From Limosilactobacillus reuteri (lineage in GTDB: Bacteria; Bacillota; Bacilli; Lactobacillales; Lactobacillaceae), in contig NZ_CP027805.1 of NCBI RefSeq assembly GCF_003072625.1, positions 247,001-311,000 of the forward strand: a DNA stretch of 64,000 bases, given 5' to 3'. The notes under the pieces are model-generated. The model did no database searches. It had not been told where the DNA came from and saw only the letters and a list, made by a program, of their open reading frames with translations. This document shows positions 44,558 to 64,000 of the stretch, piece after piece. How positions within the stretch are numbered: the stretch's first letter is position 1; each line of letters opens with the position of its first letter. The position numbers and the translations under genes were made by a program.

Positions 44558-45934
44558 GTGAAAGAACAAAAGGGGACAACAATTTTTAGTATTCCAATGA
44601 AGAACAGAAAGACTAATACTTGGGATATGTTTGCCACATGGGTCGGAGCAAATGCCAATAATGGGACATGGTTTGTCGGCGGAGTGCTCGCCGCTTGTGG
44701 ATTTTCAGTTGCCATGAAGGTCTTAGTATTGTCATCTGCCTTATCATATGTATTTTTAAGTTTGGTAGGTTACATTGGTTATAAGACTGGGGTATCAACG
44801 ATGACTTTAAGCCGTGCTTCATTTGGTGAACGGGGCAGTTATCTCCCATCATTAGTTAATATTACCCAATTTATTGGTTGGACAGCGGTTAATACTTTTA
44901 TTGCGGCCTAATCGGTAAGCATTCTTTTCCATGACTTACTAGGATGGCCTGTGTGGGGACAGCATGGCGGCTATTTAGGGCTAGCAGTCGGGATTATTAT
45001 CATGAGCATTCTCCATATCATTAGTGTTTCTAGCGGATCACGTTCAGTCCAAATGATTGAACGCTTAGGAATAATTCTTGTTCTTGTATTTGTCATTTGG
45101 GAGTCAGTGGCTGTTTTTCGAACTGTTTCCTTTAGTCAAATTGTAAATTGGCATGTTCCTGCGCAATCAAAAATGGCAGTCGGCGCGGCGGTTGATTATG
45201 TAGCAGCTTTTAATTTAGCTTGGGTAACTGCCGGCGCTGATTTCACCCGCTTTACTGCTAAAGAAAAGAACGCAACTTTGACGCCATTTCTTGGGGCTTT
45301 ACTAGGGGTTGTATGGTTTGCTTTTATCGGCTTGATTTCAACAATTAGTATTGCGATTTCAAGTGGGGTATATAACGCAAATAACTCTGATCCGTCAACT
45401 ATTGCTAGTAAGTTAGGGCTAGGGATAGTTGCCCTCCTTGTTATTATTTTGACATCAATGACGGCCAATGCTGTTAACTTATTAGCGGCCGGATCAGCTC
45501 TTTCAAATATCTTTACAAAGCTCAAATTAAAGTATTCATTATGGATCGTAGTATTGCTTGCGACAGTTGTGACCTTTATTCCGATGTTTGTCGGTAGTTT
45601 CTTGAGTGCTTTTGAATCGTTCCTTGACTATGTGGGGATGGTGTTAGGCCCGACGATTGCCATTATTTGTACTGATTTTTATTTCCGTGCTCACCGGCAA
45701 TATGATGTTGATGAATTAGGTAAAGTTGGTGGAAAATATTGGTATCGCGGAGGCGTCAACTGGGTAGCGATTATTGTTTTTGCTATCGGGGTTGCCTTCT
45801 TCTTAGGCGTGCATCAGCTGCCAATCTTCGTAAATACGATTGGGGCCACATTTATTGATATGTGTTTAAGTGGTATCTTATACTATGGAATTATGTTGCT
45901 GATTGACCGAAAGGAAGATGAATTATGTTATTAA
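44558..45934 (+). pseudogene. codB: Cytosine permease, interrupted by an in-frame TAA
   Basis: A nucleobase:cation symporter-1 family protein for cytosine uptake. Two halves share one frame and are split only by TAA at 44909-44911, where CAA or CAG (Gln) would restore a 458-residue protein. The N-terminal half has TWDMFATWVGANANNGTW, and the C-terminal half has the remaining membrane spans (VTAGADFTRFTAKEK). The start is GTG at 44558 behind AAGGAGG. The distal half overlaps codA by 10 bases. It could be inactive, a sequence error, or subject to readthrough. Confidence 0.85.
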
Positions 45935-47163
45935 AAAATGTACATATTGATAATCATGAAGAAGTAGTCGATGTTCGAATTCTCAATGGAAAATTTAGTG
46001 AGATTAAGGCTAACTTAGCGCCCCATGATGGTGAAGAGGTTATTGACGGTAAAGAAAATTTACTTTTGCCACCATTTGTTGATTCTCATGTTCACTTAGA
46101 TGCTACGCTTACTGCTGGTCAGCCAGAATGGAATGAAACCGGGACTTTATTTGATGGTATCCGGATTTGGAGTGAACGGAAACAAGATTTAACTAAAGAA
46201 GATGTTAAATCGCGTGCGAAAAAGACATTACTAAATATGGTTGGGCATGGGATTCAACACGTACGGAGCCATGTTGATGTAACTGATCCTCATTTAATTG
46301 CCGCCCGTGCTCTTCTTGAATTGCGTGAAGAATTAAAAGACCAAATCGACTTACAGTTGGTTGCTTTTCCACAAGAAGGCATTCTTAGCTATCCTCATGG
46401 ACGTGAATTAATGGAGCAGGCGGTCAAAGAAGGATTAGATGTGGTTGGTGGTATTCCCCATTTTGAGTTTACAACTGAATATGGATGGCAATCCGTCCAT
46501 TTCTTAATGGCTCTCGCGGATAAGTATGATCGTTTAGTTGATGTCCACTGTGATGAAATCGATGACCCAGCTTCGCGTAACCTTGAAGTTTTAGCGACCG
46601 AAGCTTATGAACGAGGGATGAAGGACCGGGTCACGGCAAGTCATACGACAGCGATGGGCTCATATAATGATGCTTATACTTATAAGTTATTCCGTCTATT
46701 AAAGATGAGTGATATTAATTTTGTATCTAATCCATTAGTTAATGTTCACCTTGGCGGCCGTTTCGATACTTACCCAAAGCGTCGCGGCGTTACCCGGATT
46801 AAGGAATTAACAGGAGCGGGGATTAATGTTTCCTTTGGTGAGGATGATATCCAAGATCCGTGGAATCCTCTCGGCGATGGTAACATGTTAGATGCAGTTA
46901 CGATGGGTGTTTATATTGCTCACTTGATGGGGTATCACCAACTGCAAGATGCCTTTAATTACGTAACCTATAACGGTGCTAAGACATTGCATATTAGTGA
47001 TAATTATGGAATTGAAGTAGGAAAACCGGCAAACTGTATCTTATTGAATGCCCCCGATTTCTATAATGCTCTTAATAAGCATGTTGAAGTTCTTTATAAT
47101 ATTCGTCATGGGAAAGTCCTTGCCGAGACGAAACCAGCTGAAACCAAAGTTAATATCAAATAA
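45925..47163 (+). CDS. codA: Cytosine deaminase
   Basis: An amidohydrolase of 412 residues converting cytosine to uracil and ammonia for pyrimidine salvage. Metal ligands are clear: FVDSHVHLDATL near residue 52, VDVHCDEIDDP, TASHTTAMGSYND, and SFGEDDIQDPWNPLGDG with the final Asp. It overlaps codB by 10 bases and is controlled with it by the PyrR-type leader. If codB is dead, cytosine entry would need another carrier. Confidence 0.95.
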   Translation: MLLKNVHIDNHEEVVDVRILNGKFSEIKANLAPHDGEEVIDGKENLLLPPFVDSHVHLDATLTAGQPEWNETGTLFDGIRIWSERKQDLTKEDVKSRAKKTLLNMVGHGIQHVRSHVDVTDPHLIAARALLELREELKDQIDLQLVAFPQEGILSYPHGRELMEQAVKEGLDVVGGIPHFEFTTEYGWQSVHFLMALADKYDRLVDVHCDEIDDPASRNLEVLATEAYERGMKDRVTASHTTAMGSYNDAYTYKLFRLLKMSDINFVSNPLVNVHLGGRFDTYPKRRGVTRIKELTGAGINVSFGEDDIQDPWNPLGDGNMLDAVTMGVYIAHLMGYHQLQDAFNYVTYNGAKTLHISDNYGIEVGKPANCILLNAPDFYNALNKHVEVLYNIRHGKVLAETKPAETKVNIK

Positions 47164-47188
47164 AATTAAAAAAATCTCATAATAGTTA

Positions 47189-47217
47189 TTGACAAGTTAG
47201 GGAATGATCGGTATATT
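47189..47217 (+). promoter_or_regulatory. Promoter of the T-box transcript
   Basis: TTGACA (47189-47194), a 17-base spacer and TATATT (47212-47217); the expected start is near 47224. Confidence 0.8.
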
Positions 47218-47223
47218 ATATTC

Positions 47224-47503
47224 AACGATTAAATTTAGATTAGAAAAGTGTTGAAGGAAATAACAATTTGAAATTGGTGACAGAGAATTAGCGGGTGGTG
47301 TGAGCTGATCGAGATTTCTAATTGTTAATCGTTCCTGAGTTACCGGCTGAAACCAAGTAAGCTGAGGTTGGCTGCCATCCATTATTTTGGCCACAAATGA
47401 TTGTTTGTGAATGAGAGGATTGACTACGAGTTGATCAAAGTAGGATGGTACCGCGCAGAAGCGTTCTTACAATTGCGATAAAGCAATGTAAGAACGCTTT
47501 TTT
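47224..47503 (+). ncRNA. T-box riboswitch leader
   Basis: It carries the T-box core AGGATGGTACCGCG (47442-47455) and a terminator GCGTTCTTAC/GTAAGAACGC (47461-47497) plus U-tract. Stem I has a long helix AACAATTTGAAAT/ATTTCTAATTGTT (47262-47274 with 47314-47326), a CAGAGA bulge and a GGGTGGTGTGA distal loop. The specifier is not certain; ATC (Ile) at 47328-47330 is the best candidate, and TGGT in the T-box predicts discriminator A73, which tRNA-Ile has. It controls the hydratase-like gene downstream. Confidence 0.88.
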
Positions 47504-47547
47504 CTTTCTAAATTTTAAGAAAATATTTTGTCTTGGAGGTAATTATT

Positions 47548-48339
47548 ATGACTGAATTAAACGCACGACAGGAAGAATTTGCTAAGGCTCTTTTTGAAGC
47601 TTATGACACTAATACGCCATTAAACGAGGAAGAATGGAAAGACGTTGTTACTGATGATGAAACCGCATATGCAGTTCAAGATGCGGTAGTAAAGTTAAAA
47701 GGAAAGCCAACTGCAGGCTATAAAGTTTCGTTAACTAGTAAAGAAACTCAAGACATGTTTGATGCTGATTCACCATTGTACGGACAACAAGTTGCTGAAC
47801 GATTCCTACAGTCACCAGCGGATGTTGACTTGCAGATGTTAAACGAACCGTTATTAGAGGTTGAATTAACCTTCCGCGCAAAAGAAGACTTGCAGCCTAG
47901 TGATACATTAGAAGATTTATTTCATAAGGTAACTGTTGCGGGTGCCTTAGAATTACCTGATGCACGTTTTGGCGACTGGTTTCCAGATTTAGGAAAATAT
48001 AATGTAATGGCTGATTGTGCTGTTGGTGGTCTTGTTGTATATGGTGAAGAACATGATGCAGATAGTGTATTTGAAAACGTTGACGATGCTGCTAATGTTC
48101 ATGCTGTTTTATTCAAAGATGGTGAGGAATTAAAAGAAGGGGTATCATCAGAAGTTTTGGGCAATCCCTTTAAGTCTCTTCAATGGTTAGTGCAAAAATT
48201 AGCTGAACAAGGAAAAGCATTTACCAAGGGCCAAATGGTATCATCTGGAACATTTGTCTTACCACCTAAGCTCACTGCTGGTAAGTGGGAAGTTGAGTTT
48301 GATAGCGGTTTAGGAAACGTTGTGGTTAATGCAAAATAA
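47548..48339 (+). CDS. MhpD / fumarylacetoacetate-hydrolase-fold family protein (2-keto-4-pentenoate hydratase-like)
   Basis: A 263-residue protein related to 2-keto-4-pentenoate hydratases and 4-oxalocrotonate decarboxylases, metal-dependent enzymes acting on 2-keto acids. GYKVSLTSKETQ, the acidic LLEVELTF (with two likely metal-binding Glu), DARFGDWFP and SSGTFVLPPKL are family-like. ATG at 47548 follows GGAGGT. No aromatic degradation genes are nearby, so the substrate is unknown. Control by a T-box means it is induced when one amino acid is scarce, which suggests a link to amino-acid or keto-acid metabolism. Confidence 0.8.
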   Translation: MTELNARQEEFAKALFEAYDTNTPLNEEEWKDVVTDDETAYAVQDAVVKLKGKPTAGYKVSLTSKETQDMFDADSPLYGQQVAERFLQSPADVDLQMLNEPLLEVELTFRAKEDLQPSDTLEDLFHKVTVAGALELPDARFGDWFPDLGKYNVMADCAVGGLVVYGEEHDADSVFENVDDAANVHAVLFKDGEELKEGVSSEVLGNPFKSLQWLVQKLAEQGKAFTKGQMVSSGTFVLPPKLTAGKWEVEFDSGLGNVVVNAK

Positions 48340-48405: not shown

Positions 48406-48444
48406 AAAGCGATCTGTGGTTGAGTTAATCACAGGTCGCTTTAA
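48406..48444. terminator. Convergent terminator
   Basis: AAAGCGATCTGTG and CACAGGTCGCTTT form a stem around TTGAGTTAAT, between the hydratase and the CBS gene. Confidence 0.75.
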
Positions 48445-48447
48445 TAT

Positions 48448-49086
48448 TTAATAACTTTGGTGCAAGTCTTCAATTTCTGAAACTTCCAACCCTTTTTTCT
48501 CAAGTCGTTTAACAATTCGTTCCATCTTTTCTTTAGTAATATCAGCAGGCAAGGTGTATAAGACTCGTTTCATTGTCTCGTCTTTGGGATCGAGTGAAAT
48601 GACATTTACGATCTGACAAAAACGAGTGATTTCTTTGGCAGCCGTTACCAGCGCTCCCCGTTCATCGGGAGTGATGACGGTTAGAACATAGCTTCCATTG
48701 TTGACGCTCCAGCCAGCAGCTAGCATTCGTAAAAGACTATTATGGGTTAGTATTCCGTAAAACTGGTTATTGTTGTCCAGTACTGCAATATATGGAAGAT
48801 CACGAATAGCAAAGAAGATAGAGAAGAAAGCGGCATTAATTGAGATAAATTTAGTGGCATTTTTTAATAATACAGTTACCGGTAAATGCATATCTCCATT
48901 TCGTGCCTTATGCCGGTAAAGGTGCATTTTGTAAATGTTTCCCCGAAAAATCTTTCCCGACTTATCCAAAACTGGTACACAGCGGTGGCCAGTATCCTCT
49001 AAGATAGTCAGAGCCTCATCCAATGTCGCTGTTTCTGGAAGAGTTGTTAAGGTTGCTTTGGGTTTGATTAATGAATTGAAAATCAT
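48448..49086 (-). CDS. CBS-ACT domain protein (CbpA-like, possible c-di-AMP receptor)
   Basis: A 212-residue protein with two CBS motifs (residues about 5-65 and 75-130; e.g. GHRCVPVLDKSGKIF and YIAVLDNNNQFYGILT) followed by an ACT-like regulatory domain (YVLTVITPDERGALVTAA). This order matches Listeria CbpA, which binds cyclic di-AMP; binding is inferred, not shown. It is transcribed alone, convergent with the hydratase gene and divergent from pth. Confidence 0.8.
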   Translation of the reverse strand: MIFNSLIKPKATLTTLPETATLDEALTILEDTGHRCVPVLDKSGKIFRGNIYKMHLYRHKARNGDMHLPVTVLLKNATKFISINAAFFSIFFAIRDLPYIAVLDNNNQFYGILTHNSLLRMLAAGWSVNNGSYVLTVITPDERGALVTAAKEITRFCQIVNVISLDPKDETMKRVLYTLPADITKEKMERIVKRLEKKGLEVSEIEDLHQSY

Positions 49087-62854: not shown

Positions 62855-64000
62855 GTGCGCCCGGCATGGGTATTAGCTAGGTGGTGAAAGTCCGCTATGG
62901 GCCGTAGTAGTCGGAACCATGAGCTGAGGACAAGGGTGTCCACCGTGAGGTGGAATCTGAAGGAAGTCTAAGGCAAAGTACTGCATCGATGAACAAGAAG
63001 TAGCTATAAGGCTGAAATTAACTGGATAAGGCTGCTAGACAAGTTGAAGTCCAATACTACTCGAAGTTGGTCTCAGTAAAGCTAACGATGACATGGTACG
63101 AAAGCTAATATTCTTACCCGGGGAGATCTGGCCTACACGTTTCCGACAAGAGGAATAAGTTTAATTTCCACAGAAACAAGCGGTGCAGTGATGCAGTGTT
63201 GAGTAAGCCAGAAGTCAGCCGAGGTCATAGTAGTTTGAATAATCAGATGAAGGACTGAACGACAATAACTTGTAACTTATATCGGAGGTGTAATCAGGTG
63301 CGACAATCGCAGAAAACAGAACAACAAGCTGACCGCTTGTCGAGAATAGGTTTGGAAAACCGAAAGTACACAAGGGCGCGTAGTACCGGTTATGGTGAAG
63401 GTAAAGGTATGAGTGTCACTATCCAAGACCTGGTCTTGGATCGCAATAACCTTAATCAGGCTTATTTGCGAGTTAAGAGAAATAAAGGAGCAGCAGGCGT
63501 TGACGATATGACAGTCAATGACCTTCTGCCATATCTCAGAGAAAATAAGACGGAACTGATCGCTAGTTTGCGTGAGGGCAAGTATAAACCAGCTCCAGTC
63601 AAACGGTAGAAATTCCGAAGCCTAATGGTGGAGTAAGAAGACTTGGAATACCAACGGTGGTGGACCGAATGGTTCAACAAGCTGTAGCCCAAATTCTTAC
63701 GCCTATCTTTGAGCGTGTTTTCTCTGATAATAGCTTTGGCTTCCGTCCCCACCGTGGGGCCCATGACGCTATTTCAAAAGTAGTAGATCTTTATAATCAA
63801 GGTTATCGAAGAGTTGTCGACTTAGATCTAAAAGCCTATTTTGATAACGTTAATCATGACTTGATGATTAAGTATCTCCAACAATATATTGATGACCCAT
63901 GGACACTAAGACTCATTCGTAAGTTTCTAACTAGCGGAGTCTTAGACCATGGGCTTTTCGCTAAGAGTGAAAAAGGAACCCCACAAGGAGGGCCATTGTC
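62855..64000 (+). mobile_element. Group II intron, 5' part (runs off window)
   Basis: It begins GTGCGCCCGGCATGGG, the GUGCG boundary plus domain I start of bacterial group II introns, with GGTGAAAGTCC soon after. About 440 bases of ribozyme domains precede an intron-encoded reverse transcriptase. It is inserted one to two bases beyond the lysS terminator tail. Domains V and VI and the 3' end are outside the window, so class and completeness are open. Confidence 0.85.
63298..64000 (+). pseudogene. ltrA: Group II intron reverse transcriptase/maturase, frameshifted and cut by window end
   Basis: The intron-encoded protein splices and retro-homes the intron. It starts at GTG 63298 behind GGAGGTG. 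The RT0/RT1 part (NNLNQAYLRVKRNKGAAGVDDM, given here as family wording in two blocks) stops at TAG 63607-63609; the same protein continues in the -1 frame from 63606 with IPKPNGGVRRLGIPTV, SFGFRPHRGAHDA, DLDLKAYFDNV and GTPQGGPLS. One missing G would explain it. The YxDD catalytic motif lies past the window end. Confidence 0.85.

Follow-up and report, generated by a model that had tools for sequence, protein, structure and literature searches.

The locus studied here lies in a 64,000-nt stretch of Limosilactobacillus reuteri DNA (the window), in which a gene for a 2-oxo-acid hydratase-like enzyme of the MhpD/HpcG fold occupies 47548..48339 on the forward strand (ATG at 47548, 263 aa). A Shine-Dalgarno sequence GGAGG, recognized by eye, precedes it at 47535..47539 (+). 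Downstream, the terminator scan identified a terminator-like hairpin at 48406..48442 (+), between the hydratase-like gene and cbpA (48448-49086), which is convergent to it. The initial annotation had described a single gene before a convergent terminator, and this arrangement was confirmed; the convergent gene rules out an amino-acid gene further along the same transcript. On the other side, a cytosine/purine permease-like gene (44558-45934) is broken into two open reading frames (44558-44911 and 44951-45934) and is followed by a cytosine deaminase gene (45925-47163). Pieces of a group II intron (RF02001 and RF01998) were found at 62939-63255, close to the window end.

A permissive cmscan of 47150-47600 matched the T-box model RF00230 at 47242-47471 (+) with 89.6 bits (E 2.5e-20), covering model positions 1-219 of 219, from stem I to the antiterminator. 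This score is 3.4 bits short of the curated gathering score of 93 bits, and for this reason no T-box was reported when the window was scanned with default Rfam settings. In the cmscan alignment, CAGAGA and GGUGGUG match the consensus of the AG bulge and the GNUG distal loop of stem I, and the specifier loop is degenerate in its loop-E portion (UAA / UUA versus AGUA / GAA). The specifier loop of the window reads TTA-ATC-G, and its degeneracy may explain the low score; the loop-E GAA is present in the leaders of several relatives. The T-boxes of the closest relatives scored similarly (91.8 bits for L028 and 90.3 bits for L031), and only one of 12 leaders in the window's own clade (L035, 96.4 bits) passed the strict scan. 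Across 20 loci, the strict Rfam scan placed a T-box above the cut-off before the gene in 8.

The T-box core, GGATGGTACCGCG, was located at 47443..47455 (+) from the sequence and the RF00230 alignment, with the tRNA acceptor bulge TGGT inside it at 47446-47449 (+). It is followed by an intrinsic terminator hairpin and T run at 47459..47503 (+; hairpin to about 47499), identified by eye with a fold z of -3.9; the simple terminator scan did not detect this terminator at 47459-47499. According to the RF00230 alignment and the fold, CGTTCT is common to the antiterminator and the competing terminator. The full-length match and the fold bore out the earlier claim that the T-box core, stem I and terminator are visible, and a chance T-box-like leader was ruled out by the RF00230 match and by conservation across family loci. 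A consensus promoter had been claimed as well. A sigma-70-type TTGACA-17 nt-TATATT at 47189..47217 (+) agrees with the consensus at 11 of 12 positions, but promoter-like matches of this kind were no more numerous than chance (4 in the scan versus 3.9 in shuffles).

The specifier codon at 47328..47330 (+), read from the sequence and the RF00230 alignment, is ATC (Ile) and is kept in relatives. Among 145 distinct leaders with a recognisable core, ATC stood in its customary position and specifier context in 132 and anywhere in 133; 12 leaders matched no specifier pattern, and in 11 of them ATC was visible by eye at that position. When a tighter interval was applied to the 145 leaders, ATC was counted in 107, TCA in 89 and the next codon in 38. 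A serine specifier was rejected because TCA is an overlapping frame of ATCA and because tRNA-Ser has G73, for which a TGGC bulge would be required. ARAGORN assigned the anticodon GAT to the genome's own tRNA-Ile, whose discriminator is A with Rfam boundaries, the ARAGORN frame being one base wider on each side. This tRNA-Ile(GAT) with A73 fits both contacts, the ATC specifier and the TGGT bulge. The covariance alignment, the comparison of leaders across Lactobacillaceae and the genome's own tRNA therefore uphold ATC (Ile) as the best specifier and the agreement of the TGGT bulge with an A73 tRNA, both proposed in the initial annotation. The window leader shares the AG-bulge stem I, GGTG loop, ATC, TGGT and competing terminator with the Ile-class T-box (RF00230) before ileS, but differs in its target, a 2-oxo-acid hydratase-like gene, and in its degenerate specifier-loop motif; many relatives' leaders, moreover, add an Ile-rich ORF after the terminator.

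Within the genus, 37 of 50 genomes carried the enzyme; within the family, 138 of 301 did, representing 25 of 40 genera. The relatives named among the best 80 of 183 belong to Limosilactobacillus, Lactiplantibacillus, Ligilactobacillus, Liquorilactobacillus, Companilactobacillus, Lentilactobacillus, Secundilactobacillus, Periweissella and Oenococcus. We examined 167 loci (a first set of 151, then 15 and 1); this number excludes two more copies from G175, as well as rows that are fragments or broken in G172, G055, G189, G141, G088 and G037. A T-box was located upstream of the hydratase-like gene in 141 of the 167 loci (115/151 by pattern, 14 of the other 36 by Rfam, 12/15 and 0/1), and Rfam at E 0.001 confirmed every pattern-positive locus submitted to it (18/18 and 4/4). 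In a tree of 117 rows, T-box copies occurred in almost every part. A contig filed as Psittacicella hinzii (L232) carries a hydratase 59% identical to that of the window and is probably contamination; L146 has a second T-box match downstream of its hydratase gene (1993-2166).

The isoleucine synthesis gene ilvC scored over the cut-off in 34 of the family's 301 genomes. The enzyme is present in 32 of the 34, with a broken copy in G172, giving an odds ratio of 24 with common descent ignored. This co-occurrence indicates that the enzyme is not simply a substitute for isoleucine synthesis. The window's genome gave no ilvC match, so its isoleucine is presumably obtained from outside.

The window protein contains no isoleucine in its 263 residues, and isoleucine was likewise absent from 124 of 139 T-box-linked proteins. 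Among the 128 of at least 235 aa, 114 had none, 8 had one and 6 had two to four; of a further 11, 10 had none and one had one. L038, which has a frame change near its end, was counted as its 254-residue reading. Leucine (11.7%) and valine (9.6%) were high, not low, in the T-box-linked proteins. For comparison, isoleucine averaged 6.2% over 298 ORFs of at least 200 aa from the fetched loci and the window, a set and a mean that include some hydratases, and all 16 ORFs of this set without isoleucine were hydratases by eye. At 6.2%, the chance of finding no isoleucine in 263 aa is about 5e-8 for one protein. Biosynthetic enzymes made during an amino-acid shortage tend to avoid that amino acid, as the available text of PMC4209129 describes, and the hydratase-like family likewise avoids the amino acid whose shortage would induce it. 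It differs from the bias described there in the near-total absence of isoleucine from a whole T-box-controlled family, most of whose genomes lack ilvC.

Of the 26 loci that lack a T-box, 17 have a short ORF containing consecutive Ile codons, followed by a hairpin and T run near the gene start. The ORFs end in sequences like QIIISIIIIS at L144, L147, L148, L150, L155, L168, L353 and L354, and like NNIIINAIIII at L160, L161, L162, L165 and L367; L131 and L137 have NIIAAIII and lack an ATG, and runs of seven and six Ile occur in L176 and L177, both of which are distant. In the 4 of 17 loci tested, the Ile density of the leader ORF was reached by 1 to 4 of 300 shuffles, and most of the 17 ORFs had no Shine-Dalgarno sequence by a simple test. 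The combination of Ile-run ORF and hairpin looks like classical Ile leader-peptide attenuation, and the regulatory device looks to have been swapped between lines while the sensed amino acid stayed unchanged. A comparable device is the Leu-rich leader peptide that controls S. aureus ilv-leu (PMC5794164), in which an ORF rich in the sensed amino acid also stands before the terminator. As the accessible part of that report presents it, S. aureus ilv-leu has no T-box, whereas the hydratase-like gene has a T-box, a T-box plus ORF, or an ORF alone, depending on the line.

The 17 copies behind an Ile-run leader ORF contain 0-2 isoleucines, except L168 with 5. Among the 9 copies with neither device seen, L352 has 8, L167 11, L170 5, L171 5 and L174 4, yet L114 and the three copies of genome G035 (L032, L078 and L083) have none. 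Regain of isoleucine in these sequences thus tends to accompany loss of Ile control, and exceptions exist.

In one genus with no T-box at its hydratase gene, five loci have a tRNA-Ile(GAT)-like gene immediately 3' of that gene and on the same strand (L160:1699-1771 and L162:1699-1771, +; L161:1384-1456, L165:1395-1467 and L367:1385-1455, -, the last by Rfam only). Their T-loop is non-canonical (ATCATTA or ATCATTC, by eye), the first acceptor pair is mismatched and CCA is not encoded, consistent with a regulatory or a decayed tRNA.

Many relatives have an additional ORF behind the T-box itself. The core lies at least 150 nt before the ATG in 121 distinct leaders, and 111 of these have an ORF with its own Shine-Dalgarno sequence 70-145 nt behind the core, after the terminator. 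The ORF was chosen without regard to isoleucine, and choosing by Shine-Dalgarno sequence gave the wrong frame in some loci (e.g. L067, L073, L075, L076, L089, L104 and L226). Isoleucine accounted for 17.7% of codons 2-20; the other two frames gave 8.9% and 11.7%, and shuffling gave 9.1%, with 11.1% as the highest value among 200 shuffles. In 87 of the 111 ORFs, M and two to four further residues are followed by Ile. Codons with a single change were synonymous 264 times versus 124 expected in 95 of the 111 ORFs, with no excess in the other frames; this count comes from 161 non-independent pairs, and the motif filter applied to the 95 ORFs favours the true frame. Sixteen of the 111 ORFs, Companilactobacillus included, end no more than 12 nt before the enzyme's ATG or past it, which suggests that a stalled ribosome could alter access to the start. 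The post-terminator ORF, which is absent from the window's clade, is probably a second means of sensing tRNA-Ile charging, through ribosome stalling. At L103, the stretch from the leader ORF to the hydratase gene is C/A-rich and G-poor with repeated CACATA, and by eye might be a Rho entry stretch.

We then considered the genes that accompany the enzyme. A same-strand gene lies within 80 nt of the hydratase-like gene in 31 of 151 loci; by short motifs, 12 were assigned as LDH/HicDH-like, 5 as PanE-like, 4 as BrnQ-like and 10 as others, several of the last being probably spurious frames. One representative per kind was assigned by NCBIfam: the PanE-like one to the apbA/panE family, the LDH/HicDH-like one to L-lactate dehydrogenase, though below its equivalog cut-off, and the BrnQ-like one to the LIVCS transporters. 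Branched-chain 2-oxo acids are substrates of PanE and HicDH. In the genome to which the window belongs, 26 T-box matches were counted, 12 of them above the cut-off, and those read as ATC precede the hydratase, PanE-like, BrnQ-like and ileS-like genes, the last two named by eye.

The dehydrogenases were compared for isoleucine content over the best 30 loci of each search, with the broken L282 and L292 set aside. PanE-like proteins had 4-6 isoleucines in about 318 aa in 23 full-length T-box copies and in two orthologues with no T-box seen, whereas four unlinked PanE-like paralogues had 15-19; L260 and L262 are Ile-poor PanE-like proteins although no link was seen. Among LDH/HicDH-like proteins, 2-4 isoleucines were counted in the 10 encoded behind the hydratase and in 3 whose genes have a TGGT T-box pattern of their own, two with a TGGC pattern had 1 and 4, and L303, LDH-like with no link seen, had 3, whereas 13 unlinked paralogues had 13-17. 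The contrast between linked and unlinked paralogues serves as a control within protein families and one genus. The PanE of Lactococcus, which Chambellon reportedly described in 2009 as a branched-chain D-2-hydroxyacid dehydrogenase, belongs to the same protein family as the hydratase's partner and co-regulated gene; the PanE-like genes here differ from it in being Ile-poor and under Ile T-boxes.

The AlphaFold2 model of the window enzyme had a mean pLDDT of 95.1, and Foldseek matched its fold to 2eb6 (TM 0.89, E 7.1e-25). Identity to the solved relatives of the HpcG group is about 22-27%. E104, E106, E135 and K59 are invariant in the enzyme family and lie at HpcG metal-site positions, and we take them to be metal-site ligands. 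The Pfam scan of the enzyme gave no match at E 0.01, and the equivalog cut-offs of HpaH, MhpD, DmpE and DmpH were not reached (best 84.8 versus 351.5), so the enzyme was filed under none of these functions. Sequence and predicted model group it with HpcG, MhpD and NahK. The initial annotation had called it an MhpD/FAH-like keto-acid enzyme, which agrees with the MhpD/HpaH-type 2-oxo-acid enzyme indicated by profile, structure and Foldseek comparison. It has the same fold and metal-site residues as the 2-oxohept-3-ene-1,7-dioate hydratase HpcG/HpaH, MhpD and the decarboxylase NahK, but is only 22-27% identical to them, scores under the equivalog cut-offs and belongs to a family almost free of isoleucine; in the solved relative HpcG, about 21 isoleucines were counted in 252 residues. 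Known members of the HpcG/MhpD group bind a 2-oxo acid through a metal and react via an enol. The wider fumarylacetoacetate hydrolase group, as outlined in the available text of PMC10825186, includes enol-keto tautomerases of oxaloacetate.

On the evidence of T-box anatomy, the match to isoleucine, conservation, device replacement, Ile depletion and neighbouring genes, all read from the sequences, it is probable that an Ile-specific T-box switches on an Ile-free 2-oxo-acid enzyme within an Ile-starvation regulon for branched-chain acids. Uncharged tRNA-Ile(GAU) would pair with the leader at two points, the ATC of stem I and the TGGT of the antiterminator; the terminator would not form on the tRNA-bound leader, and the hydratase-like gene would be transcribed. 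The product, a member of the MhpD/HpcG group, would act on a 2-oxo acid with the help of a metal and, being free of isoleucine, could be translated while isoleucine is short. The enzyme, BrnQ and the PanE-/HicDH-like dehydrogenases would together make up the regulon, which would serve 2-oxo and 2-hydroxy acids with branched chains. From this arrangement we infer that the gene is induced in vivo, that the enzyme depends on a metal and that the pathway recovers isoleucine. The link between a keto-acid enzyme and amino-acid starvation, raised in the initial annotation, is thus strengthened by the lack of isoleucine in the enzyme, its BrnQ and dehydrogenase partners and the Ile-run ORFs that replace the T-box.

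Because control is Ile-specific and the partners handle 2-oxo/2-hydroxy acids, the keto acid of isoleucine would be the likeliest substrate. The leading, though tentative, candidate for the reaction is an enolising step (C3 epimerase or tautomerase) on 3-methyl-2-oxopentanoate. Enolisation at C3 would return the wrong C3 isomer of this acid to the precursor of L-isoleucine, which would explain control by isoleucine rather than by leucine or valine. It is possible, though less likely than not, that isoleucine sensing has been kept by interchangeable devices and that an isoleucine-recovering enzyme, for example a 3-methyl-2-oxopentanoate C3 epimerase, has been purged of isoleucine so as to remain translatable during the shortage.

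A true hydratase or dehydratase that acts on a 4-hydroxy-3-methyl-2-oxo acid, and so reaches the keto acid of isoleucine by a detour, would also fit isoleucine regulation, and the nearest solved relatives include 2-oxo-enoate hydratases. Its substrate would be either the keto acid of 4-hydroxyisoleucine or an aldol formed from 2-oxobutanoate and acetaldehyde. However, no aldolase or ene-reductase was recognised by eye among the neighbours listed, and we consider this function rather unlikely. It is less likely still that the enzyme disarms or recycles an isoleucine analogue or an inhibitor of isoleucyl-tRNA synthetase, with the T-box sensing the resulting uncharged tRNA-Ile: a T-box answers uncharged tRNA from any cause and an Ile-free product would suit such a role, but the partners are BrnQ and 2-hydroxyacid dehydrogenase-like proteins and the enzyme occurs in 25 of the 40 genera searched. 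That the T-box is a relic of a former operon and the Ile poverty a compositional chance is very improbable, the degenerate specifier loop of the window notwithstanding, given the T-box kept in 141 of 167 loci, the Ile-run leader ORF in 17 of the other 26, the chance of about 5e-8 and the high leucine and valine.

T-boxes before hypothetical genes are known, among them that of the "Ile related hypothetical" LBA1071 in L. acidophilus (Wels 2008, PMC2494555); from the available text of that report, LBA1071 could not be matched to the hydratase-like gene. Among titles and abstract starts of the open-licence literature, we found no paper joining isoleucine control to a hydratase-like enzyme. T-boxes, attenuators and cognate bias are thus already known, and the target and the combination were not found in the open-licence literature searched. 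What is new is the Ile-free enzyme, its company of Ile-stripped linked dehydrogenases and BrnQ, and the Ile-rich post-terminator ORF in many relatives. The preferred reading, an Ile-free enzyme within an Ile-starvation regulon, would assign a little-studied enzyme family, present in lactic acid bacteria of the gut and of food, a role in isoleucine shortage that can be tested, and would point to a new way of recovering isoleucine in bacteria seemingly unable to make it. The family would be a clear-cut natural example of enzymes that have shed the very amino acid whose scarcity turns them on, in which RNA control devices have been exchanged and the regulatory logic retained.

Other T-box genes of the window's own genome (L013, L010, L004 and L025) also look poor in their cognate amino acid. 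The genes behind Met T-boxes encode 1 Met in 378 residues, 2 in 283 and 2 in 322, and a trpS-like gene behind a T-box encodes no Trp in 340 residues, with names and specifiers assigned by eye.
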